Origin: Oceanobacillus senegalensis | GTDB lineage: Bacteria > Bacillota > Bacilli > Bacillales > Amphibacillaceae | Reading direction: 5' to 3' | DNA: 64,000 nt | Assembly (NCBI RefSeq): GCF_900176885.1 | Contig: NZ_LT839648.1 | Coordinates: 382,428-446,427, forward strand | Shown: positions 20,689 through 34,337 of the stretch, one piece after another | Layout of the letters: every line of letters starts with the position of its first letter | Position numbering within the stretch: the first letter of the stretch is position 1 | Program-made: the position numbers and the translations under genes | Notes under the pieces: model-generated | The model's database searches: none | The model's input: only the letters and a program-made list of their open reading frames with translations | Told to the model about the DNA's origin: nothing

Positions 20689-22077
20689 TTACACCTTTTC
20701 CGCTAATCCGATTGAAACCTTTTTGGCTGGATGATTATCTGGTAAATGGACATGCCCTTTTCCAAATAGGTTTTCACGTAATGTGGATGCTTCATATTCT
20801 TTACGAAAACTTCCTCTTTCTTGGAGGATAGGTATCACATATTCAATAAAATCTTCAAAGGTATCAGGACTTGCTGCTTGGATAATATTAAATCCATCTG
20901 CATCTCCCTCGTTAGCCATCAATTCTAATTCATCAGCCACTTGTTCTGGGGTACCGATAATTTTTGTTGCACCTATCCCTAAACCATGATGAAGTACAGC
21001 CTCTCTAACGGTCCACAGTTTGTTTGTAGTTGCAATGGTATATTTTTGTAAAAAGCCATGAGAAGCATTTGTTTCTAAATTTTCTACATATTGATTTGGA
21101 TCGTATGTAGAAAAGTCGACTCCCGTATGACCGGACAATAAGGCTAATGTCCCTTCATAACTAACGTACGAAGTTAATTCCTGATACTTTAATTTTGCTT
21201 CTTCTTCTGTTTCACCAACAATAGGGACAATACCAGGAAAAACTTTAATGTCTTCTGGATTCCTTCCAGCTCTCTTTGCTCTCTCCCTGATATCTGCAAC
21301 AAACGTTTTTAATTCAGAAATATTGTTAGCTAAGGTTGTGAATATCGCTTCCGCATGTGTGGCTGCAAAGTTTCTTCCTCTTTCAGAAGCTCCTGCCTGA
21401 AATAAGACAGGTGTACGTTGAGGGGAAGGTTCTACTAGATGAACACCAGGAACGCTAAAAAACTTACCACTATGGTGAACGGGATGAACTTTATTTGGGT
21501 TTGTATATACACCTGAAACTTCATCCGCTATAACCGCATCATCTTCCCAACTTTTTTCCCATAGTTTATAGACGACTTCCATATATTCATCTGCACGTTC
21601 ATAACGCATCCTATGTTCCATTTGCTCTTCCAATCCTAAGTTAATGGCTTCACTTCTTAAGTAGGATGTAACAATATTCCATGCGACACGTCCTTTCGTT
21701 AAGTGATCTAGTGTTGATAAATCGCGTGCTAATTTATAAGGTTGTGTATACGTCGCTGAGTATGTTGGTGCAAATCCTAAATTGTCCGTTACTGCTGCCA
21801 TTGCAGAAATTTGCAGTAATGGATTATGCAATGGAACTTGGACGGCATGTTTCACGGGTGTTTTGTGATTATCCCCATATACATCATAAATCCCATGTAC
21901 ATCCGCTAAAAATAAAGCATCAAATTTCCCTCGTTCAAGTAATTTGGCTAAGTTAATCCAATAATCTAAATCACCATGTTGTCGTCCCTTATCCTTTGGA
22001 TGTCTCCATAATCCAGGTGAATGTGGAGCAACAGTATTTTGTGTAAATCCATTTAAACGAATTTGTTTTTTCATCAT
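20689..22077 (-). CDS. LLM-class FMN-dependent monooxygenase (NtaA/SnaA/DszA family)
   Basis: The 462-residue protein belongs to the bacterial luciferase-like superfamily, NtaA/SnaA/DszA branch, which uses reduced FMN and O2. Family landmarks are KQIRLNGF at the start, FDALFLADVHG, ISAMAAVTDNLGFAPTYS, DHLTKGRVAWNIVTSYL, PVLFQAGASERGR and DGFNIIQAASPDTFEDF. Many members split C-S or C-N bonds. The SAM riboswitch upstream strongly suggests a role in sulfur scavenging or methionine-related metabolism. Two adjacent ATGs (22077 and 22074) follow an AGGGAGAGGG site; an upstream ATG at 22134 is less likely. A reductase partner is not adjacent. Confidence 0.9.
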   Translation of the reverse strand: MMKKQIRLNGFTQNTVAPHSPGLWRHPKDKGRQHGDLDYWINLAKLLERGKFDALFLADVHGIYDVYGDNHKTPVKHAVQVPLHNPLLQISAMAAVTDNLGFAPTYSATYTQPYKLARDLSTLDHLTKGRVAWNIVTSYLRSEAINLGLEEQMEHRMRYERADEYMEVVYKLWEKSWEDDAVIADEVSGVYTNPNKVHPVHHSGKFFSVPGVHLVEPSPQRTPVLFQAGASERGRNFAATHAEAIFTTLANNISELKTFVADIRERAKRAGRNPEDIKVFPGIVPIVGETEEEAKLKYQELTSYVSYEGTLALLSGHTGVDFSTYDPNQYVENLETNASHGFLQKYTIATTNKLWTVREAVLHHGLGIGATKIIGTPEQVADELELMANEGDADGFNIIQAASPDTFEDFIEYVIPILQERGSFRKEYEASTLRENLFGKGHVHLPDNHPAKKVSIGLAEKV

Positions 22078-22257
22078 TACCCTCTCCCTTTGATAATAGT
22101 GAATCGTTTTCCTTAAGCGATTAACGGCCCTCATTTTCTAACCTCACCTATTTTCTTAAACTATATTTTTTCACCCCCCTTACATAAAAAAGTTAGGTTA
22201 TCCCATAGGTTTAGTAGGCATTAAGATATAGAAATGCCTTCGAGAAAAGGTTGATGC

Positions 22258-22308: not shown

Positions 22309-22424
22309 GCCCTCATCTTTCAAGCTGTATGCTTGCTGGAATGGGCACCTTTTCTCTTAAACATTTAAGGATGGTTGCCGCAGGATCATCGGACCAGTTT
22401 CCTACCCTGACTCTTGATAAGGAA
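22309..22424 (-). promoter_or_regulatory. SAM-I riboswitch (S-box) aptamer
   Basis: Read on the minus strand, the consensus S-box blocks appear in order: CTTATCAAGAG, CAGGGTAGG, CTGGTCCGATGATCCTGCGGCAACC, AAGGTGCCCATTCCAGC and AAGATGAGG closing the P1 stem. The terminator at 22258-22292 completes an OFF switch: when S-adenosylmethionine is plentiful, transcription should stop before the LLM monooxygenase gene. This links that gene to sulfur/methionine supply. Confidence 0.92.
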
Positions 22425-23550: not shown

Positions 23551-23581
23551 GTGAAGGGGGCATTAATACCCCTTATCTCAA

Positions 23582-23623
23582 AAATAGATGAATGCCTCAC
23601 TTTTAAAGGCATTCATCTATTTT
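23582..23623. terminator. Bidirectional terminator between the HAD and SDR genes
   Basis: AAATAGATGAATGCCT pairs perfectly with AGGCATTCATCTATTT around an 8-nt loop; A and T runs are present on both sides. Confidence 0.9.
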
Positions 23624-23636
23624 CTAAAATACTAGT

Positions 23637-24404
23637 CTATTTAATTGTATTCCCGCCATCTATCACAATATTTTCCCCTGTGATTAGGTTTGAAGCATCA
23701 CTAGCAAGGAATAAGGCGATGGCAGCTACCTCTTCCGGATAACCAAACCGTCCTAATGGAATTTCTTTTTTGGCCTTTTCACCTTTTTCTCCCGCCCAAG
23801 CCTTTTTACCTAACTCTGTTAAGATAACAGTTGGGGAGATAGCATTTACCTTAATACCAAACTGTGCCCATTCATAGGCTAATACCTTAGTCATTCCAAG
23901 AACACCAGCTTTACTTGCTCCATAAGCCACGTGGTTGTCTAAAGCAATTACCGCCGCTTGGGATGCTAGATTGATAATTTTACCACCATGTCCTTGTTTA
24001 ATTAATACATTACCAACTTTTTGACTCATTTTAAACGTGCCCGTTAAATTAATATCCAATGTTTTTTGCCAATATCCATCTGAAATATTTTCAGCATCGT
24101 CTAGTAATGCAATTCCAGCACAGTTTACTAGAATATCAATTTTTCCAAAATTCTCTTTAGCGCCTTGGATAGCTTTATCCATGCTTTCGTTATCTGTAAC
24201 ATCACATTGGAAACCAACGGCATTTTCCGAATCTATTTGCTTCGCTGTATCCATTACATCTTCCTTTAAATCTAGTATTGCGACCTTTGCCCCTTTTTCA
24301 AGGTAAAGCTCTGTAATTGCCTTACCGATTCCGCTTGCTCCCCCAGTTACTAAAGCAACTTTATCTGTAATGTTGAAGTTTGTATCATAACCTTTAAATT
24401 CCAT
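23637..24404 (-). CDS. SDR dehydrogenase of the tetritol cluster (D-threitol dehydrogenase-like)
   Basis: This 255-residue short-chain dehydrogenase has the NAD-binding TGGASGIG, NCAG, the catalytic Ser (NLASQAAV) and YGASK, and ends IDGGNTIK. It resembles polyol dehydrogenases annotated as D-threitol or galactitol/sorbitol dehydrogenase. It lies 82 bp downstream of the DeoR-type regulator on the same strand, so the two are probably one transcript divergent from the rest of the cluster. The inferred role is oxidation of a tetritol to erythrulose beside the zinc-dependent enzyme at 25521. The start at 24404 has AGAAGGA 6-7 nt upstream; an ATG at 24437 is weaker. Confidence 0.8.
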   Translation of the reverse strand: MEFKGYDTNFNITDKVALVTGGASGIGKAITELYLEKGAKVAILDLKEDVMDTAKQIDSENAVGFQCDVTDNESMDKAIQGAKENFGKIDILVNCAGIALLDDAENISDGYWQKTLDINLTGTFKMSQKVGNVLIKQGHGGKIINLASQAAVIALDNHVAYGASKAGVLGMTKVLAYEWAQFGIKVNAISPTVILTELGKKAWAGEKGEKAKKEIPLGRFGYPEEVAAIALFLASDASNLITGENIVIDGGNTIK

Positions 24405-24486
24405 TTTATTTCCTTCTTTCTTTTCAGTGTTTTTCATTTGATTCCGCTTTCAATTGTGGGATTAAAAAAGAGAGCAGACTCTTTTA

Positions 24487-25254
24487 TTAATTTGTCAAAA
24501 TAATTTCGATATTGTTCACTGCAAGGTGATTTTCAATGTCACTAGTTATCGGTTTATCCGTAATAATTTTGTCTATTTGGTTCAGTTTAGCGAATAATGC
24601 ACTTGATGATTTATTTATTTTTGAAGAATCAATTAGGGCAATTACTTGTGATGACCTTTTTACAATTTCCTTTTTTAATTGAACTTCATAAAGATTAAAG
24701 TCTTCTAGACCAGTTTCAACGGAGAAACCATTTGCAGATGTAAACATGATATCAATATTGACGTAATCAAGGATATTCAATCCAAGCGTTCCTTCAATGG
24801 AGGTAGATTTATTAGTTACAACTCCACCAACCATAATTACCGTTAGATCTTGATTCTCTTTTAATTCAATGGCCGCTTGTAATCCAGTTGTTACCACTGT
24901 TAACCGAATAGGCATTTCTTTTAAAAGCTGTGCTAAACCCAATGCTGTTGAACTTGCATCCAGGAGTATACATTGCTTTTCTTCTATAAATTCAAGTGCC
25001 TTTTCAGCAATTTCCATCTTTTCCTTTTTATTTTTCTTTTGTCGGACATTAAAGCTTGTGTCGTTTTCTTCATTAAGTACTGCACCTCCATGAGTGCGAG
25101 TTAATAGCCCATCATTCTCCATTTTGTTTAAATCACTTCGTAACGTGGCTTCAGACACTCCTATTTTTGATGCTAGTTCTTTGACAGTAATCCGTTTTTT
25201 TTCTTGCAATAGCTCTATAATTCTGTCTCTTCTTTCTGTTGCAAACATCTTCAT
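24487..25254 (-). CDS. DeoR/GlpR family transcriptional regulator
   Basis: The 255-residue protein has the DeoR layout. The N-terminal helix-turn-helix (RRDRIIELLQ, VKELASKIGVSEATLRSDLNKMENDGLLTRTHGGAV) is followed by a DeoRC sugar-phosphate sensor domain with ILLDASSTAL, VVTTGLQAA, VGGVV and ALIDSSKINKS. Such repressors usually release DNA on binding a phosphorylated pathway intermediate; here erythrulose phosphate or erythrose 4-phosphate is a reasonable guess. The start at 25254 lies 6-8 nt after AAGGGTG. It is divergent from the zinc dehydrogenase gene, and CGAAA-type boxes sit at three cluster promoters. Confidence 0.9.
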   Translation of the reverse strand: MKMFATERRDRIIELLQEKKRITVKELASKIGVSEATLRSDLNKMENDGLLTRTHGGAVLNEENDTSFNVRQKKNKKEKMEIAEKALEFIEEKQCILLDASSTALGLAQLLKEMPIRLTVVTTGLQAAIELKENQDLTVIMVGGVVTNKSTSIEGTLGLNILDYVNIDIMFTSANGFSVETGLEDFNLYEVQLKKEIVKRSSQVIALIDSSKINKSSSALFAKLNQIDKIITDKPITSDIENHLAVNNIEIILTN

Positions 25255-25318
25255 GAACTTCACCCTTATCTAGTTTCTATTATTATCTTATTTCATTTAT
25301 CTCCAATAATCAATAGAT

Positions 25319-25348
25319 CACTTTCATTTACTATTAATTCGAAAGTGA
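25319..25348. promoter_or_regulatory. Inverted-repeat operator candidate in the divergent region
   Basis: TCACTTTC and GAAAGTGA form a perfect 8-bp inverted repeat with arm centres 22 bp apart (two helical turns). The right arm is part of TTCGAAAGTGAA, which resembles boxes at 25409, 28045 and 29925. A likely site for the DeoR-type regulator. Confidence 0.55.
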
Positions 25349-25403
25349 AGGAAATAAATTATATATAAAATCACACATATACGAAAAAAAAACAAAAATT
25401 ATA

Positions 25404-25431
25404 TTGACAATTCGAAAATAAATGCTAAAAT
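25404..25431 (+). promoter_or_regulatory. Promoter of the tetritol catabolic operon with overlapping operator box
   Basis: TTGACA, a 16-nt spacer and TAAAAT lie 90 bp before the dehydrogenase start. The spacer contains AATTCGAAAATAAA, a variant of the box in the upstream inverted repeat, so repressor binding would occlude RNA polymerase. Confidence 0.65.
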
Positions 25432-25441
25432 AAAATTGTAT

Positions 25442-25456
25442 TTGAAAACGATTGCA
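25442..25456 (+). promoter_or_regulatory. Catabolite-responsive element (cre)
   Basis: TTGAAAACGATTGCA matches the CcpA consensus WTGNAANCGNWNNCW at every fixed position. It lies 10 bp after the -10 box, where CcpA blocks initiation or elongation, so glucose should repress the operon. Confidence 0.75.
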
Positions 25457-25520
25457 GTTTTAAAATACTTAATTATTTTCATTATAATAGGAAATAAAAA
25501 TAGGTTAGGGAGAGATAGTA

Positions 25521-26630
25521 ATGGAAAAAACATTAGAAAACACAGCAAAACAAAACCTTGAAATACCTGAAACGATGAAAGCTGTTGTTGCGTATAGCCC
25601 TGGAGATTATAGATATGAAGAAGTAGAAACACCAAAATTAGATAATGATCAAGAAATTATTATTGAAGTAGAAGCTTGTGGTATTTGTGCAGGAGATGTT
25701 AAAGCATATGGGGGAGCTCCTAGTTTCTGGGGAGACGAAACTCAACCAGCATATATTAAAGCTCCTATGATTCCCGGTCATGAATTTATTGGCCGTATTG
25801 TACAAAAAGGTTATGCAGTCAAAGATTTTGAGGTCGGGGATCGTGTAATTTCTGAGCAAATTGTTCCATGTGAAGAATGTCGTTTTTGTAAGCGTGGCCA
25901 ATATTGGATGTGTGAAAAACATGATCTATATGGTTTTCAAAACAATGTAAACGGTGGCATGGCTCAATACATGAAATTTACAAAAGAAGGTATTAACTAT
26001 AAGGTCCCTGAGGATTTACCACTGGAAAAAGCGATTTTAATCGAACCTTATGCATGTAGTTTACACGCTGTACAAAGGGCTAATATTGAATTAGGTGACT
26101 TTGTTGTACTTTCTGGTGCTGGTACTCTTGGTCTAGGAATGATTGGTGCGATTAAGAAATCTGGTGCTGGTAAGCTAGTAGTACTAGATATGAAAGAGGA
26201 TCGTTTAGAGCTAGCTAAGAAATTTGGTGCAGATATCGTAATGAACCCTGCAGAGGTAGATGTGGTTAAAGAAATTAAAGATATGACAGAAGGGTATGGT
26301 TGTGATATTTATATCGAAGCTACTGGACATCCATCATCTGTTGAGCAAGGATTGCATGCAATTAGAAAACTGGGTACATTCGTTGAGTTTAGTGTATTTG
26401 GTGAACCTGTTTCTGTTGACTGGAGTATTATAAGTGACCGTAAAGAATTAGATTTATTAGGTTCTCACTTAGGACCTTACTGCTACCCACTTGTAATTGA
26501 CGGCATCGCTAATGGGGATTTCCCAACAGAAGGTGTCGTAACACATCAATTACCATTAGAAGAATTTGAAAAAGGCTTTGAATTAATGAAGAAAGGTGAC
26601 AAATCATTAAAAGTTATTCTTAAACCGTAA
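25521..26630 (+). CDS. Zinc-dependent polyol dehydrogenase (erythritol/L-threitol dehydrogenase-like)
   Basis: The 369-residue medium-chain dehydrogenase has catalytic zinc ligands in EACGICAGDVKAYG and PGHEFIG and four structural-zinc Cys residues in PCEECRFCKRGQYWMC. A Rossmann motif GAGTLGLG is followed by an acidic residue (VLDMKED), so NAD is the likely cofactor. The sequence recalls dehydrogenases described for erythritol/L-threitol use (EltD). It is the first gene of the operon, after a ribosome binding site AGGGAGAG. The expected reaction is tetritol to erythrulose. The substrate call rests mainly on the downstream erythrulose-type kinase and RpiB-like isomerase; another short polyol is possible. 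Confidence 0.82.
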   Translation: MEKTLENTAKQNLEIPETMKAVVAYSPGDYRYEEVETPKLDNDQEIIIEVEACGICAGDVKAYGGAPSFWGDETQPAYIKAPMIPGHEFIGRIVQKGYAVKDFEVGDRVISEQIVPCEECRFCKRGQYWMCEKHDLYGFQNNVNGGMAQYMKFTKEGINYKVPEDLPLEKAILIEPYACSLHAVQRANIELGDFVVLSGAGTLGLGMIGAIKKSGAGKLVVLDMKEDRLELAKKFGADIVMNPAEVDVVKEIKDMTEGYGCDIYIEATGHPSSVEQGLHAIRKLGTFVEFSVFGEPVSVDWSIISDRKELDLLGSHLGPYCYPLVIDGIANGDFPTEGVVTHQLPLEEFEKGFELMKKGDKSLKVILKP

Positions 26631-26663
26631 CTTTTGGGGATTTAAAAAAAGGGGGAGAATAAC

Positions 26664-27935
26664 ATGCCTGACTTAACAAAGAATCAATCTTTTTTAGATA
26701 AAATCGGTATACCATCACATTTAGCTTGGGGATTTTTCGGTGTACTCCTATTTATGATGGGGGACGGTTTGGAGTTAGCATGGATTAGTCCATATCTTGT
26801 TGAACAAGGATTATCCGTTCAACAAACTGCTGTACTAACAACTTCCTACGGTGTAACGATTGCCATTGCAGCTTGGTTCTCTGGGGTTCTTGTTGAAGCA
26901 ATCGGTCCAAGAAAGACCATGTCACTTGGTGTAATATTTTATATAATTGGACATGCTTTATTTGTTGGAATAGCAATCCCTGACTTAAATTATGGATTGA
27001 TGATACCGACATATGCACTACGAGGCTTTGGTTACCCACTATTTGCCTATGCATTCTTAGTTTGGGTGACCTACCGTACACCTCAACACCAATTAGGAAA
27101 AGCAGTAGGTTGGTTCTGGTTTGTATTTACTGCGGGACTAAGTGTATTAGGAGCTTATTATTCTAGTTGGTCTATCAGTATGATTGGGCATACCGCAACA
27201 CTTTGGAGCGCAATCTTTTGGGTTTTAATTGGTGCATTTTTCGCCATTGTAGTTAATCGAGATAAGTTTGAAATGGAAGTCAAATCAAGTGAAGGTTCTA
27301 AATCAAAGGAATTACTTAAAGGTATTACGATTGTGAAGAAGGAGCCAAAGGTTGGGATTGCTGGTATTGTACGTGTCATTAACCAAGCGTCTCAATATGC
27401 ATTCCCATTGTTCTTACCACTATATTTAGCTGATCAAGGAATAAGTACAAGTACATGGTTAAATATTTGGGGAACTATCTTTATTGCTAATATCGCTGTT
27501 AACTTAGCATCTGGATATATTGGAGATAAATTTGGCTGGAGAAATACGGTTACGTGGTTAGGTGCAGTGGGTTGTGGAGTATTTACCCTCATGTTATTCT
27601 ACACACCACAAATATTTGATGGCAATGTTTTCTTAGTTGGTGTTGTTGGATTCTTATGGGGTGCATGTTTAGCAGGTTTCGTTCCATTGTCTGCTTTAAC
27701 TCCATCATTAGTTGGGGATGGAGACAAAGGAGCAGCGATGTCTATTCTTAACCTTGGAGCTGGACTATGTGTATTCGTAGGACCTGCACTTGTTGCATTA
27801 TTCTATGATTTAGTAGATACACAAGGTATGATGTGGATTCTAGCTATTCTATACTTTGTTGCTGCTATTCTTTCTAGATTCTTAAAACTTCCTGAAGAAG
27901 AAGGTAAAGATGAAGTAGTTGGAAAATCAGCTTAA
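26664..27935 (+). CDS. MFS polyol transporter
   Basis: The 423-residue protein has about 12 membrane helices and an MFS-like A-loop (SGVLVEAIGPRKTM) between helices 2 and 3, with a related GYIGDKFGWRNT in the second half. It resembles the ribitol/D-arabinitol permease branch (RbtT/DalT-like) of MFS proton symporters. It follows the dehydrogenase by 33 bp with its own GGGGGAG site and is very likely in the same operon, supplying the polyol from outside. A hairpin without a T run lies just downstream (about 27977-28004), possibly an mRNA processing or stability element. Confidence 0.85.
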   Translation: MPDLTKNQSFLDKIGIPSHLAWGFFGVLLFMMGDGLELAWISPYLVEQGLSVQQTAVLTTSYGVTIAIAAWFSGVLVEAIGPRKTMSLGVIFYIIGHALFVGIAIPDLNYGLMIPTYALRGFGYPLFAYAFLVWVTYRTPQHQLGKAVGWFWFVFTAGLSVLGAYYSSWSISMIGHTATLWSAIFWVLIGAFFAIVVNRDKFEMEVKSSEGSKSKELLKGITIVKKEPKVGIAGIVRVINQASQYAFPLFLPLYLADQGISTSTWLNIWGTIFIANIAVNLASGYIGDKFGWRNTVTWLGAVGCGVFTLMLFYTPQIFDGNVFLVGVVGFLWGACLAGFVPLSALTPSLVGDGDKGAAMSILNLGAGLCVFVGPALVALFYDLVDTQGMMWILAILYFVAAILSRFLKLPEEEGKDEVVGKSA

Positions 27936-28038
27936 TGACATGTTTAAAATCTCTAGTGAAAGCAATTAATAATAAGTGAGGACAAGGATGTCGTCACTTA
28001 TGGTTCAATTTATAATTATATAGATACTATTGAAACTA

Positions 28039-28067
28039 TTGAAACGAAATGAAACTAAAGGTATTAT
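28039..28067 (+). promoter_or_regulatory. Internal promoter before dhaK with operator-like box
   Basis: TTGAAA, a 17-nt spacer and TATTAT lie 54 bp before the dhaK-like start. The spacer begins CGAAATGAAA, matching the CGAAA-type box at the other promoters of this cluster. Confidence 0.55.
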
Positions 28068-28120
28068 GTTTTTAATATTTTGTTAGTTGGATAAACAAAT
28101 TAACAAGGAGGAATACATCG

Positions 28121-29125
28121 ATGAAAAAGCTAATTAACAATCCAAAGAATGTAGTAGAAGAAATGGTAGAGGGCTATGTAAAAGCTCATCCTGAATATAT
28201 AAAACAATTACCCGAAAATGATAGATCTTTAGTAACTGCTAGAGAAACACGTGAAGGAAAAGTAGGTATCCTAATTGGTGGTGGTTCTGGTCATGAGCCA
28301 GGTTTTATGGGATACGTAGGAGATGGCATGGCTGACGGTGTAGCTGTTGGAAATATCTTTGCCTCCCCATCACCAGATCCCATCCTAGAAGTAACGAAAG
28401 CAATAGACAAAGGTGCCGGTGTGGTTTATCTCTATGGTAACTATGCTGGAGATGTTATGAACTTTGGAATGGCAGCTGAGATGGCGGATTTAGAAGAAGA
28501 TATTCAAGTAGGTATGGCATTAGCTTCAGATGATGTTGCATCTGCTCCAAAAGAAGAAAAGGAAAAACGCCGTGGTATTGCAGGGGAATTTTTTATTTAT
28601 AAAGCAGCAGGAGCAGCAGCGGACTTTGGTTATAACTTAGATGAAGTAGTACGAGTCGCGAAAAAGGCAAATGAAAATACTCGTTCCATGGGTGTAGGTT
28701 TAAGCCCTTGTTCATTACCGCAAACTGGCGAGCCAAGCTTTGAAATTGGCGATGATGAAATGGAAATTGGACTAGGACATCATGGGGAACCTGGTATTGA
28801 AAAAGGAACAATTCAACCAGCAGATGCTGTAGCCGACAGACTTGTAGCCGACATTTTAGCTGATATCGAAATTAATAATGGTGACAAGGTTGCTGTCTTA
28901 GTTAATGGTCTAGGTTCAACACCTAGAATGGAATTATACATTGTTTATAGAAGAGTAGAACAAATCCTACGTGATAAAGGAATCGAGATTTACCGTTCCT
29001 ATGTTGGTGATTACATCACATCATTAGAAATGGGTGGAATGTCTGTGACGTTAATGAAACTAGATGATGAATTAGAAAAGGCAATTGATCATCCAGTAGA
29101 TTGTCCAATGTTCGTACAAAAATAA
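28121..29125 (+). CDS. DhaK-family keto-sugar kinase subunit (erythrulose kinase-like)
   Basis: The 334-residue protein is a DhaK-type substrate-binding subunit. It has IGGGSGHEPGFMGYVG and AVGNIFASPSPDP at the substrate site, and His221 in HHGEPGIE, the residue that holds dihydroxyacetone or a homologous ketose as a covalent hemiaminal. The nucleotide-binding partner DhaL follows 30 bp downstream. No DhaM phosphocarrier gene is present in the window, so ATP is the probable phosphate donor. In erythritol/threitol pathways homologous pairs act as D- or L-erythrulose kinases, which fits the isomerase and transaldolase genes next door. Dihydroxyacetone remains an alternative substrate. Confidence 0.88.
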   Translation: MKKLINNPKNVVEEMVEGYVKAHPEYIKQLPENDRSLVTARETREGKVGILIGGGSGHEPGFMGYVGDGMADGVAVGNIFASPSPDPILEVTKAIDKGAGVVYLYGNYAGDVMNFGMAAEMADLEEDIQVGMALASDDVASAPKEEKEKRRGIAGEFFIYKAAGAAADFGYNLDEVVRVAKKANENTRSMGVGLSPCSLPQTGEPSFEIGDDEMEIGLGHHGEPGIEKGTIQPADAVADRLVADILADIEINNGDKVAVLVNGLGSTPRMELYIVYRRVEQILRDKGIEIYRSYVGDYITSLEMGGMSVTLMKLDDELEKAIDHPVDCPMFVQK

Positions 29126-29155
29126 TTGTTAACTTAAAGAAGGAGGACTATGGTC

Positions 29156-29812
29156 ATGAATATTTCAGCAAAAGAACTAAAAGATTTTTTCAAAGTAGTA
29201 GTCAATATGATTGAAGATGAAAAAGATTATCTTTGTGAATTAGATAGAAAATTAGGGGATGGGGACCACGGAGTTACCATGTCGATTGGCTGGCAAGCAG
29301 TAAATGAAAAACTTGAAAGCGAACTAGCTGATGAAGAAGATTGTGCAAAAATCAGCTTGACTGTTGGTAAAACATTCTTAAGTGCTGTAGGTTCTTCTGT
29401 AGGTCCACTATATGCGACAGGATTTATGAGAGGCGCTAAGATTGTTAAAGGTAAATCTGACATGAATGATGCTGATTTAGCGCAATATTGGATTGCTTTT
29501 GCAAAAGGAATTAAAGAACGTGGACAAGCTGAAGTTGGCGATAAAACAATGATTGATACATTAGAACCTTTTGGTAATGCACTAAACGATAAATTCGCTG
29601 AATCTGCAGACTTCCTAAGCTCATTCACAGAAGCTGTAGCGGAAGCGAAAAAAGGAATGGAATCAACGAAAGATTTAGTATCTAAGAAAGGTCGCTCTAG
29701 CCGTTTAGGAGATCGCTCTGTAGGTGCTCAGGACCCTGGTGCAACATCTGCTTATCTTATTTTAGATTCATTCCTTACATTTGTTAATGAGAATGTAGAA
29801 AAAGCGGGCTAA
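29156..29812 (+). CDS. DhaL-family kinase subunit
   Basis: The 218-residue all-helical subunit binds ADP/ATP and Mg2+ and transfers phosphate to the substrate held by DhaK. Motifs are the Mg-binding DRKLGDGDHGVTM, GKTFLSAVGSSVGPLYATGF, GDKTMIDTLEPF and the lid region SRLGDRSVGAQDPGATS. The ATG at 29156 is 9 nt from AAGGAGG; the ATG at 29150 is too close. A terminator follows, and the next gene has its own promoter. Confidence 0.9.
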   Translation: MNISAKELKDFFKVVVNMIEDEKDYLCELDRKLGDGDHGVTMSIGWQAVNEKLESELADEEDCAKISLTVGKTFLSAVGSSVGPLYATGFMRGAKIVKGKSDMNDADLAQYWIAFAKGIKERGQAEVGDKTMIDTLEPFGNALNDKFAESADFLSSFTEAVAEAKKGMESTKDLVSKKGRSSRLGDRSVGAQDPGATSAYLILDSFLTFVNENVEKAG

Positions 29813-29843
29813 GGGATTGTTAAGGAAGTTAATAGAAATCTAA

Positions 29844-29879
29844 TAGGGAATCAGGCTGTAAATCTGGTTCCTCTTTTTA
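29844..29879 (+). terminator. Terminator after dhaL
   Basis: AGGGAATCAG pairs with CTGGTTCCT (G-T pairs) around 9 nt, with T5 following. Confidence 0.75.
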
Positions 29880-29921
29880 TGAAAAGAAAGCAAATGAAAA
29901 AACAAAAAATAAAACAAAAAT

Positions 29922-29967
29922 AAACGAAAGATAAATTGTTGAAAATAAATAAAAAAGGATTTAAAAT
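29922..29967 (+). promoter_or_regulatory. Promoter before the RpiB-type gene with operator-like box
   Basis: TTGAAA (29939), a 17-nt spacer and TAAAAT (29962) form a good sigma-A promoter. AACGAAAGATAAA lies immediately upstream of the -35 and matches the cluster's CGAAA-type box. Confidence 0.6.
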
Positions 29968-30015
29968 GAAAATATATAAAAGAACAATAAAGATAGGTGA
30001 AAGGGGTTTGCAACT

Positions 30016-30501
30016 ATGAAACTAGCAATCGGTAGTGACCATAATGCATTTGATTTAAAAGAAACGATTAAAGATTATTTAAAAGGTACAGAGCATGAAG
30101 TGGTTGACTTTGGTTGCCATTCTAAGGACTCGGTAGACTATCCAGATGTAGCATTTGAGGTTGCTGAGGCAATCAGTAAAGGGGAAGCAGAACGTGGAAT
30201 TTTAATTTGTGGTACAGGTATTGGTGTATGTATCGCAGCAAATAAATATCCAGGAATTCGTGCAGCATTAGCTCATGATACGTACTCTGCAGAGCGTGCA
30301 CAATTAAGTAACAATGCACAAATTATTACAATGGGTGCACAAATTATTGGTCCTGAAGCAGCGAAGAAAGTGGTTGAGGCTTATTTAAATGTAGAATGGG
30401 AAGAAGGTTCAAAACGTAAAGTCGATAAAATTAATGAAAAAGCAGAAGAATTCTTAGCTGATAATTACAAAGAAGTAACACAAGGCGGTTTTGGTTGCTA
30501 A
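30016..30501 (+). CDS. RpiB/LacAB-family sugar-phosphate isomerase (erythrulose-4-P isomerase-like)
   Basis: The 161-residue protein matches the RpiB fold: [11 protein letters not shown] at the N-terminus, the catalytic Cys65 in ICGTGIG, and [16 protein letters not shown] with substrate-contacting residues. RpiB members isomerise ribose 5-P, allose 6-P or, in tetritol pathways, D-erythrulose 4-P to D-erythrose 4-P (DerI). Position between an erythrulose-type kinase pair and transaldolase/transketolase supports the last role. A housekeeping RpiB role cannot be excluded. The start has AAAGGGG upstream. Confidence 0.87.
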
Positions 30502-30551
30502 TCAATTTCTTTAACGGTTTACAACTCATTATAAATTTGGAGGTTGTTCTT

Positions 30552-31214
30552 ATGAAATTTTATTTGGATACAGCAAATGTAGAAGAAATCAATCGTATTA
30601 ATCGTTTAGGCTTATTGGATGGTGTTACAACAAACCCTTCTATTATTGCTAAAGAAGGTAGAGATTTTGAAGAAACAATTAAAGAGATTTGTAGTATTGT
30701 TGATGGTCCTGTTAGTGCAGAGGTTATTGGGCTTACGGTTGATGAAATGGTTGAAGAAGCAAGGAATATCGAAACATGGGCAGATAATGTGGTTGTTAAA
30801 ATTCCAATGACAGAGGCAGGGTTAGAAGCAGTTCATATCCTTTCTAAAGAAGGAATCAAAACAAATGTAACTCTTATTTTCTCTGTTGCTCAAGGATTAA
30901 TGGCAGCAAAAGCAGGTGCAACGTTTGTAAGCCCATTTGTAGGAAGAGTGGATGATATCGGTGAGGATGGAATCGAGCTTATCCAAAACTTAAATCAAAC
31001 GCTAATAAACTATAATTTTGACACAGAAATAATCACAGCTAGTGTTCGTACCATTGGACATTTAGAAAAAGCTGCAGTTGCTGGTGCGCATATTGCAACA
31101 ATCCCAGGATCATTACTACCAAAACTTTGGAAGCATCCATTAACAGATAATGGAATTCAGCAATTCCTAGCAGACTGGGAAAAGGTTCCTAAAAAAGCTG
31201 AAACATTATCTTAA
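30552..31214 (+). CDS. Transaldolase (small, TalC/MipB type)
   Basis: The 220-residue protein belongs to the short transaldolase/fructose-6-phosphate aldolase group, shorter than classical TalB. It begins [13 protein letters not shown] and shows [14 protein letters not shown], the Schiff-base Lys83 in VVVKIPMT, and TNVTLIFS. It would react erythrose 4-phosphate with fructose 6-phosphate, drawing the tetrose phosphate into the pentose phosphate pathway. TTTGGAGG lies before the ATG at 30552. It is 50 bp after the isomerase gene and 15 bp before transketolase, a tight operon. Confidence 0.92.
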
Positions 31215-31229
31215 GGAGGTATTGGAATA

Positions 31230-33245
31230 TTGACAATTACTACTCAAACTTCCATTGAACAATTATCCATTAATACCATTCGTACTTTATCCATTGATGC
31301 CATTGAAAAAGCGAATTCCGGACACCCTGGTTTACCAATGGGTGCCGCACCAATGGCTTATACATTATGGACAGACTTTATGACACATAATCCAAAGCAT
31401 TCAAAATGGTTTAACCGTGATCGCTTTGTGTTGTCTGCAGGTCATGGTTCCATGCTTTTATATAGCTTGCTTCACTTATCAGGTTATGATGTTTCTATGG
31501 ATGATATCAAAAACTTCCGTCAGTGGGGCTCTAAAACTCCAGGACATCCGGAAGTACATCATACCGATGGGGTAGAAACGACTACTGGACCACTTGGCCA
31601 AGGTATTTCAACTGCTGTTGGGATGGCGATGGCTGAAGCTCATCTAGCGGCACAATATAATAAGGAAAATTTCCCTATCGTTGACCACTATACCTATGCA
31701 CTTGTAGGGGATGGGGATTTAATGGAAGGAATCTCTCATGAAACAGCATCTCTTGCAGGACATTTAGGTTTAGGGAAATTAATCGTCTTATATGACTCAA
31801 ATGATATTTCATTAGATGGTGATTTAGATCGTTCTTTTTCTGAAAATGTAGCTAATCGCTTCAAAGCATATGACTGGCAAGTACTTCGTGTGGAAGATGG
31901 TAATGACATAAAAGCAATACAAGAGGCAATGAAAACTGCGAAACAAAACACCACACAACCAACATTAATTGAAGTGAAGACGGTTATTGGTTATGGTTCT
32001 CCAAACAAATCAGGATCATCTGATTCGCATGGTGCGCCTCTTGGGGAAGAAGAAGTAAAATTGACGAAAGAAAATTATAATTGGTCACATGAACCTTTCT
32101 TCGTACCAGAAGAAGTTTATGCAGATTTCCAAGAAAAAGTAGTTCAAAAAGGTACAGACGCAGAAGATAAATGGAACCAATTAGTTGCTGATTATAAACA
32201 ATCTTACCCAGAATTAGGGAAGCAGTTAGACCTTGATATTAATGGTGAATTACCTAAAGACTGGGATAAGGACTTACCAGTTTATGAAGCAGGAAAAGAT
32301 ACGCTTGCAACACGTGCTTCTTCTGGTGAAGTATTGAATGCGATTGCCAAAGCTGTTCCAAACTTCTTTGGCGGGAGTGCTGATTTAGCTGGTTCGAACA
32401 AAACAACCATCAACAATGCAGCAGACTTTTCAAGTGAAAATTATGCTGGAAGAAATATTTGGTTCGGTGTGCGTGAATTTGCGATGGCAGCTGCATTAAA
32501 TGGGATGGCTCTACACAGTGGCTTGAAGGTATTCGGTGGAACCTTCTTCGTATTCAGTGATTATTTACGTCCAGCTGTTCGCTTGTCTTCCCTTATGAAG
32601 GCTCCTGTGACATATGTATGGACACACGATTCCATTGCGGTTGGTGAGGACGGTCCAACTCATGAACCGGTTGAACATTTAGCGGCATTCCGTTCGATGC
32701 CAGGCTTATCACTTATTCGCCCAGCAGATGGGAATGAAACACAGGCAGCATGGCGACTAGCAGTGGAATCAACTGATCAACCAACTGCATTAGTTTTAAC
32801 AAGACAAAATCTACCTACATTAGAAGGCACAAAAGAAAAAGCATATGAAGGCGTGAAAAGAGGTGCATATGTTGTCAGTGATTCAAGAAAAGAAACACCG
32901 GATGCACTGATTCTATCTACTGGATCAGAGGTTCAGCTAGCTGTTCTAGCTCAAAAGGAATTAAAAGAGAAAAACATCGATGTTCGTGTGATCAGCATGC
33001 CATCATGGGATCGGTTTGAAGCACAAAATCAGGCATACAAAGATGAAGTTATCCCACCGCAAGTGAAAAAGCGCTTAGCTGTTGAAATGGCAGTTCCATT
33101 TGGCTGGGAACGTTACACTGGTGACGAAGGGAAAATCCTTGGAATTGATACCTTTGGTGCTTCGGGAAACGGTAATAAAGTGATGGAAGAATTCGGATTT
33201 ACTGTTAAGAATGTTGTGAAACAGGTTGAGGATTTATTTCAATAG
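31230..33245 (+). CDS. tkt: Transketolase
   Basis: The 671-residue enzyme has the full transketolase layout. The thiamine diphosphate domain has [21 protein letters not shown] and the Mg/ThDP motif [12 protein letters not shown]. The pyrimidine-binding domain has [17 protein letters not shown] and [18 protein letters not shown], and a C-terminal domain follows. It exchanges two-carbon units between ketoses and aldoses, including erythrose 4-phosphate. I accept the TTG start at 31230 (AAGGAGG 10 nt upstream, 15 bp after transaldolase). Its place in this operon suggests a pathway-dedicated copy in addition to a housekeeping tkt elsewhere. Confidence 0.95.
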
Positions 33246-33337: not shown

Positions 33338-33372
33338 AAAACGCTTGGATTTTTTAAGTCCAAGCGTTTTTT
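33338..33372 (+). terminator. Terminator at the end of the tetritol cluster
   Basis: AAAACGCTTGGA pairs perfectly with TCCAAGCGTTTT around 9 nt and ends in T6. Confidence 0.92.
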
Positions 33373-33482: not shown

Positions 33483-33560
33483 ATAATGAAATACATGTTT
33501 ACAAAGAATATGGTAGAACTAAACATTTTCAGATTACCATCATATAGGGAGGAATTTATA

Positions 33561-34337
33561 TTGAGCAAAAAGGTAGCAGTTATTACAGGATCAGGTCAAG
33601 GAATAGGGAAAGCGTTGGCTGAACGCTTAGCGAATGAAGGCTTTTCCATTGTGTTAAGTGATATTAATGAAGAAACTTTATCAGGAACTGAGAAAGAATT
33701 TAAAAATAATGGTCATGACGTTACATCGTTCGTTGGGAACGTTGCAAAACCAGAAGATCAAGCTTCCTTAGTTCAACATGCTGTAGATACGTTCGGCAGT
33801 GTAGATGTTTTCATTAATAATGCAGGTGTGGAAGGACAAGTCGCCCCTCTTACAGAAGTAGACCCTAAACCGATTGATTTAACATTAGATGTGAACATTA
33901 AAGGTGTTATCTACGGCATTCAAGCTGCAGGGAATCAAATGAAAAAACAAGGATCTGGTGGAAAAATTATTAACGCTTGTTCTATCGCAGGACATGAAGG
34001 CTTTGAAATGTTAGGAGTGTATTCGGCTACCAAATTCGCAGTAAAAGGTCTAACACATACTGCAGCAAAAGAACTTGCACCACATAAAATAACTGTAAAC
34101 TCATACTGCCCAGGTATTGTCGGTACAAGTATGTGGGAACGCTTAGACGAAAAAATGATGGAACATATGGGAACGAAGAAAGGAGAAGCTTTTGCTAAAT
34201 TCTCAGAAGGTATTGCACTTGGACGCTCTCAAACGCCTGAAGATGTAGCTGATCTTGTATCATTTTTAGCTTCGCCTAATTCTGATTACATTACAGGACA
34301 AAACATACTAACAGATGGTGGCATGGTGTTCAGATAA
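33561..34337 (+). CDS. SDR: diacetyl/acetoin reductase-like (2,3-butanediol dehydrogenase)
   Basis: The 258-residue SDR has [17 protein letters not shown], the catalytic Ser (ACSIAGHEG) and YSATK, followed by [18 protein letters not shown], wording typical of ButA-type (S)-acetoin-forming diacetyl reductases. Members interconvert diacetyl, acetoin and 2,3-butanediol with NAD(H). I start at the TTG at 33561, where TAGGGAGG is 8 nt upstream; the frame can be extended to 33486 but that extension has no homologue-like sequence. It is a single gene, separated from the tetritol cluster by a strong terminator. Confidence 0.82.

Follow-up and report, generated by a model that had tools for sequence, protein, structure and literature searches.

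What is a nine-gene cluster for that brings together two polyol dehydrogenases, a sugar alcohol permease, a two-subunit kinase of the dihydroxyacetone (DHA) type and three enzymes of the pentose phosphate pathway? This cluster occupies positions 23637–33245 of a 64 kb stretch of the Oceanobacillus senegalensis genome (contig NZ_LT839648.1), referred to here as the window; the host genome has 4.3 Mb and is 99.99% complete. A preliminary description had proposed a complete route for the degradation of erythritol and threitol. The nine genes that it named are all present as open frames, a minus-strand pair (a short-chain dehydrogenase/reductase, SDR, and a DeoR-type regulator) and seven plus-strand genes divergent from it, and all nine proteins score above the Pfam cut-offs of the families named. 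Six of them also pass a curated NCBIfam cut-off, which none of the EltD-like protein, the DeoR regulator and DhaK does. From gene content, residue differences and gene neighborhoods, we conclude that the cluster very probably serves the catabolism of erythritol and D-threitol under the control of DeoR and probably of CcpA. The pathway itself is a variant of an already known tetritol route.

In the route that we propose, the major facilitator superfamily (MFS) permease would import the tetritol, the EltD-like dehydrogenase would oxidize erythritol and the DthD-like SDR D-threitol, both to D-erythrulose, DhaK–DhaL would use ATP to convert D-erythrulose into D-erythrulose 4-phosphate, and the RpiB-type enzyme would isomerize the latter to D-erythrose 4-phosphate (E4P). 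The transaldolase (Tal) and transketolase (Tkt) of the cluster, together with the housekeeping RpiA and a putative Rpe, could then turn three E4P into one fructose 6-phosphate (F6P) and two glyceraldehyde 3-phosphate, as computed for this set of enzymes; a variant with aldolase and a sedoheptulose bisphosphatase gives 2 F6P from 3 E4P. A Providencia protein annotated as erythritol/L-threitol dehydrogenase shares 53.8% identity with the EltD-like protein. The precedent is the tetritol pathway of Mycolicibacterium smegmatis, with EltD, DthD, LerK/DerK, LerI and DerI (PMC10733421, PMC12780249). There, EltD and LerK lead from L-threitol to L-erythrulose 1-phosphate and from erythritol to D-erythrulose 4-phosphate, and LerI and DerI lead onward to E4P (PMC10733421, citing Huang et al., 2015).

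Several enzymes of the cluster look spare, since RpiA, a second Tal (54% identical to the cluster Tal, two copies in all) and a second full Tkt (77% identical, two full copies in all) are encoded elsewhere in the host genome, which agrees with the earlier view of Tal and Tkt as dedicated to this pathway. With RpiA present, the host can handle ribose 5-phosphate without the cluster RpiB; a second RpiB/LacAB protein was not found in the host genome. There is one DhaK, and DhaM gave no match in the host genome with a model that recovers E. coli, L. lactis and Hfx. volcanii among the controls, so that the two-subunit kinase is most likely ATP-dependent.

The RpiB-type protein keeps the catalytic Cys (position 65) and has a Ser (Ser98) at the position of the ring-opening His (His99 in E. 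coli, His102 in T. cruzi and L. donovani); a second ring-opening His (T. cruzi His138) is seemingly absent as well, in a region where the alignment is less sure. In RpiB the Cys isomerizes and the His opens the furanose ring (PMC4783025, PMC3755991, PMC4882579), and its mutation lowers the kcat of the E. coli enzyme 26-fold (H99N) and leaves no activity in LdRpiB (H102N; PMC4783025, PMC3755991). The window enzyme may do without this His because its proposed C4 phosphate substrate cannot form a ring, which would give a plain chemical explanation for the loss of a catalytic residue. In erythrose and erythrulose 4-phosphate the phosphate sits on the very oxygen needed for ring closure.

We retrieved 79 named loci with the EltD-like protein as sole query (from the best 80 of 259 confirmed stretches), and all 69 RpiBs found in them have Ser at the ring-opening position. 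By comparison, 30 RpiBs of the class, taken as the highest-scoring PF02502 matches and hence biased toward typical RpiBs, all have His, and none of their regions of 3.4 kb contains a DhaK. At 20 further places of 12–13 kb each, hand-picked from lower-scoring or second copies, a DhaK neighbor was found with Ser in 6/6 and with His in 0/14 (15 RpiBs; Fisher 0.00003, presuming an independence that fails). All six Ser-type places have an adjoining DhaK and DhaL, and five also an EltD of at least 75% identity; three of the six genomes belong to one genus, and one place (L200) is probably the same record as named locus L005, the count being 5/5 without it. Five solved RpiB chains were displayed; Ser stands at this position in 5ifz, and His in the remaining four, two of which are one protein. 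Of these chains, 5ifz was scored with the NCBI model of D-erythrulose-4-phosphate isomerase (DerI), which it passes with 248.5 bits against a cut-off of 240. These observations, together with RpiA elsewhere, favor the earlier suggestion that the enzyme acts on erythrulose 4-phosphate rather than on ribose 5-phosphate.

A second residue difference is found in DhaK. The window protein reads GLGHHGEPG against GxGIHxEPG, i.e., it has His-His (HH) in place of Ile-His (IH) at the covalent substrate site. Ile precedes the covalent His in all five solved chains displayed (12 matched; four of the five are one protein), and it is from these chains, not from a published definition, that our IH criterion for DHA kinases derives. 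HH-type DhaKs occur in 46 of the named loci. A DNA-pattern search of the phylum made without the EltD bait detected HH in 5 of 398 genomes (that of the window included) and IH in 68 of 398. RpiB, EltD or DthD lay near an HH DhaK at five of six places outside the window and near an IH DhaK at none of 14 (at least 50% identity; Fisher 0.0004, with the same failing presumption). Four genomes account for the six HH places, with two identical DhaKs, so that counted by genome the figure is 3/4, and the 14 IH regions were hand-picked out of 77 IH places in the 68 genomes. HH proteins form two groups in the tree (two changes; the deep branches are weak). Along with the missing DhaM, the HH pair and the gene neighbors favor a kinase that acts on erythrulose rather than on DHA, as had been proposed.

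On balance we favor the view that the RpiB family holds a branch of tetrulose-phosphate isomerases, in which Ser would replace the ring-opening His for a ringless substrate, and that the partner DhaK would have His for Ile beside the covalent His to hold D-erythrulose, so that both residues together would tell tetritol clusters from ribose-phosphate and DHA enzymes in any genome; a second layer would be carbon rearrangement by Tal in the window, and in relatives by GlpX (acting as a sedoheptulose bisphosphatase) or by the two together. Genes whose only annotation is "ribose 5-phosphate isomerase B" or "dihydroxyacetone kinase" could then be screened cheaply at these residues. No report of the Ser98 and HH marks was found in the literature searched, mostly at title and abstract level.

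Several observations weigh against a tetritol pathway with these enzymes. The window RpiB, with 164.9 bits, falls below the DerI cut-off of 240, as do those from L093 and L099 (164.9 and 161.3); the model, whose name includes "Rhiz", may just have a narrow scope. DhaK reaches 398.4 bits, only 8 bits short of the DHA kinase equivalog cut-off (406.25), which leaves room for the use of DHA. The EltD-like protein is below every NCBIfam cut-off, and the family of the permease takes its name from ribitol and D-arabitol permeases. Nine IH loci (Paenibacillaceae and Paludifilum) and one VH locus (Terrilactibacillus) were found among the EltD loci without a gene for a triosephosphate isomerase (TIM)-like protein, and locus L097 has an HH DhaK with no RpiB, EltD or DthD match within 18 kb. 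Because of the IH and VH loci and of L097, HH marks this kind of kinase and does not define it. Two stricter rules, that clusters with RpiB and EltD are always HH and that IH always goes with TIM, were rejected on account of the same IH and VH loci.

Close to the DhaK of L097 (L097:8132-9142) are genes that we named by eye as HAD-like, FGGY-like kinase and zinc dehydrogenase, and the HH pair may serve another purpose at this locus. At L101:9828-10196 an HH-type DhaK directly after an EltD-like gene is reduced to its C-terminal part, and two complete HH DhaKs, identical to each other, are encoded elsewhere in that genome. In the Paenibacillaceae clusters L042, L056, L059, L068, L069, and L078, a HAD-type protein and a glycerophosphodiester-phosphodiesterase-like protein (named by sequence reading) stand beside the IH DhaK.

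The alternative that survives best, which we consider unlikely, is that L-threitol is used along with erythritol and D-threitol, an unrecognized isomerase or the housekeeping TpiA turning L-erythrulose 1-phosphate into D-erythrulose 4-phosphate. The EltD of M. smegmatis does act on both erythritol and L-threitol (PMC10733421), and the protein here is EltD-like. Yet the sole TIM-family gene of the genome lies in a glycolytic operon (gap-pgk-tpi-gpmI-eno, gene names by eye), no second TIM of the LerI/EryH type was found in the host genome, and the cluster contains no further isomerase gene. A TIM-like gene, searched for in the named loci with one TIM query (E up to 1e-5), accompanies none of the 46 HH DhaKs; it is found in all nine loci with the grouped fused DhaK–DhaL proteins of Halomonadaceae, which are Ile-His in 9/9 (they escaped the HH/IH pattern and were counted from open reading frame groups), as well as at L041 (IH, two subunits) and at L053. 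The contig of L050, which is of the IH type, stops at its DhaK, and a TIM was not found there. Since a LerI-type isomerase is missing, L-threitol would be expected to halt at L-erythrulose 1-phosphate. The "erythritol/threitol" route of the preliminary description thus stands for erythritol and D-threitol, with a fitting family for every step, and its L-threitol branch does not.

A second alternative is the use of glycerol or DHA, with a dehydrogenase acting on glycerol, DhaKL on DHA, and RpiB, Tal, and Tkt being incidental. The DhaK and DhaL family names and the narrow miss of the equivalog cut-off speak for it. It appears highly improbable to us, because DhaM is absent from the genome, DHA phosphate requires no RpiB, Tal or Tkt and yet RpiB is found in 57 of the 79 EltD loci, the covalent site differs from that of the displayed solved chains, and in 14/14 of the IH regions fetched without the EltD bait there was no RpiB, EltD or DthD neighbor of at least 50% identity. 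Pentitol catabolism (ribitol, D-arabitol or xylitol) via a pentulose, with RpiB acting on pentose phosphate, is just as hard to sustain, for besides the permease and RpiB family names and the fact that Tal and Tkt serve pentoses too, it would have to accommodate a cluster with no FGGY pentulokinase, an RpiB without the His whose mutation cuts ribose 5-phosphate activity (PMC4783025, PMC3755991) and a genome that already has RpiA.

Among the closest known systems, the tetritol pathway of M. smegmatis follows a like order, in which polyol dehydrogenases act first, the free ketose is then phosphorylated, and an isomerase yields E4P. The cluster differs from it in having an MFS permease, separate DhaK and DhaL, its own Tal and Tkt, and no LerI; M. 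smegmatis takes up tetritols by an ABC importer. The MFS importer and the DeoR regulator, named beforehand as points of difference from the mycobacterial pathways, agree with the matches to TIGR00897 and to HTH_DeoR and DeoRC. The Brucella-type Ery pathway (EryA, EryB, EryC, EryH/TpiA2, EryI/RpiB; PMC5992420) also has an RpiB-type last step to E4P, and the Ser of the window RpiB is shared by the DerI-model chain 5ifz. In that pathway, unlike in the route proposed here, the polyol is phosphorylated first, and EryC and EryH are needed; no EryA-type kinase, EryC or EryH is found among the genes of the cluster. In Yarrowia lipolytica, EYD1 is the dehydrogenase and EYK1 the erythrulose kinase. These genes form an erythritol cluster with TIM-like and RpiB-like genes (PMC5992420), so that an RpiB-like isomerase gene is again clustered with erythritol genes, although this is a eukaryote and its TIM-like EryH homologue is missing in the host here. 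The DhaKLM dihydroxyacetone kinase shares the DhaK and DhaL subunits, and is set apart by its DhaM and by Ile-His at the covalent site.

The neighborhood is widely conserved. Protein groups have members in the 79 named loci as follows: RpiB 57, DhaL 55, DhaK 54, DeoR 51, MFS 36, DthD 34, GlpX 31, Tkt 23, and Tal 7. These counts are rough, as they come from single-linkage groups of reading frames, some contigs end early and some members were lost (L004 has an ungrouped glpX), and the DthD group includes distant SDRs (~39% identity). With HH DhaK in 46, DhaL in 55 and RpiB in 57 of the 79 loci, the gene grouping is not due to chance. An EltD match is found in 23 of 147 sampled genomes of the family, three of them only 53–54% identical, and in 5 of 16 genomes of the genus, one being a 54% match without the cluster. 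Tetritol catabolism with a DhaK–DhaL kinase is thereby indicated in Bacilli such as Oceanobacillus, Virgibacillus, Halobacillus, Staphylococcus, Listeria, and others; no report of it was found in the literature searched, whose coverage mostly excluded subscription papers. Overall, the preliminary interpretation is supported, since the RpiB, DhaK and neighborhood tests could have contradicted it and did not.

The gene that follows rpiB varies. In the 12 nearest named relatives (L002–L013), and in all seven family genomes that we fetched (of 16, excluding the window's own, with EltD of at least 80% identity), glpX comes directly after rpiB; three of these seven (L144, L147, and L148) are probably the same records as L002, L008, and L007. 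Close relatives thus have a dedicated GlpX after rpiB, with or without Tal. This second GlpX occurs in at least 31 of the 79 named loci, and the copy of O. caeni, whose cluster has tkt and no tal, is 51% identical to the only GlpX of the window genome, which is encoded near fba, the other tal and murA (names by eye). We had guessed a TIM-like LerI in the 1-kb rpiB–tal gap of the relatives, a candidate that was rejected as the gene there is glpX. In the window the rpiB–tal gap has only 50 bases, and no glpX remnant was found in the window (best tblastn E 1.0, far from the gap). GlpX is mentioned as an identified sedoheptulose 1,7-bisphosphatase (PMC10733421), and by this analogy the bisphosphatase variant would suit the relatives with glpX, and the transaldolase variant the window with its tal.

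A similar gene set is also present on large plasmids in L093 (Klebsiella pneumoniae), L095 (Salmonella), and L094 (Pseudalkalibacillus), comprising EltD-like, MFS, DhaK, DhaL, and RpiB genes plus tal and tkt, tal, or glpX, with generic annotations. Transposase genes lie nearby in L093 and L095.

Table 1. Genes and predicted signals of the cluster and its borders (positions in the window).
Feature	Position	Strand	Evidence
Two-sided terminator-like hairpin between HAD gene and SDR gene	23575..23630	.	-26.5 kcal/mol, z -7.1, minus-strand fold
SDR dehydrogenase, GolD/DthD family; proposed D-threitol to D-erythrulose	23637..24437	-	NF005309 384.2 bits vs. cut-off 286
DeoR-family regulator, upstream of SDR gene, divergent from catabolic operon	24487..25263	-	HTH_DeoR and DeoRC above Pfam cut-offs
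Sigma-A-type promoter TTGACA-16-TAAAAT, TG before -10	25404..25431	+	11/12 consensus letters
cre-like site TGAAAACGATTGCA, just downstream of promoter	25443..25456	+	13/14 consensus letters
EltD-like zinc-dependent MDR dehydrogenase; proposed erythritol to D-erythrulose	25521..26630	+	ADH_N and ADH_zinc_N
MFS permease, proposed tetritol importer	26664..27935	+	RbtT/DalT/CsbX family TIGR00897 548.6 bits vs. 375
DhaK subunit, proposed D-erythrulose 4-kinase	28121..29125	+	Dak1 416 bits
DhaL, nucleotide-binding kinase subunit	29150..29812	+	TIGR02365 178.3 bits vs. 138.3; Dak2
Terminator-like hairpin in 203-base dhaL–rpiB gap	29846..29872	+	Fold z -2.5; 2/200 shuffles as good
RpiB-type isomerase	30016..30501	+	PRK05571 190.8 bits vs. 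135
TalC/FSA-type transaldolase	30552..31214	+	TIGR00875 304.4 vs. 245.95
Transketolase	31230..33245	+	TIGR00232 992.9 vs. 682.25
Intrinsic-terminator-like hairpin with T tail, closing the plus-strand genes	33338..33370	+	-18.6 kcal/mol, z -8.4

The features are listed in Table 1. The SDR has its YxxxK motif at residue 171, and its best solved relative is 4npc, deposited as sorbitol dehydrogenase. The nearest solved relatives of the transaldolase, 1vpx and 3r8r, are both deposited as transaldolases, and its start is most likely the ATG at 30552 and not the mechanical TTG at 30495. Overall, the promoter scan gave no excess (31 sites against 37.4 in shuffles), nor did that for terminators (6 against 6.0). 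We accepted the promoter because it is conserved upstream, its TTGAC being kept in 15/15 aligned upstream regions, and the end hairpins because of their folding. The site resembling the consensus of the catabolite-responsive element (cre) may indicate catabolite repression by CcpA; a 13/14 match stands at the corresponding position in 5 of the 14 relatives (6/15 with the window), and the other nine have weaker versions. The hairpin between dhaL and rpiB might reflect attenuation, with rpiB-tal-tkt perhaps a separately tuned segment. The next SDR gene (33486–34337), for an acetoin-reductase-type protein, lies beyond the strong terminator-like hairpin that closes the plus-strand genes.

On the other side of the cluster, a SAM riboswitch was found at 22310–22423 on the minus strand (76.9 bits against a gathering cut-off of 44.4), upstream of a luciferase-like monooxygenase gene (20689–22134, named by eye), for which it suggests a sulfur-related role.

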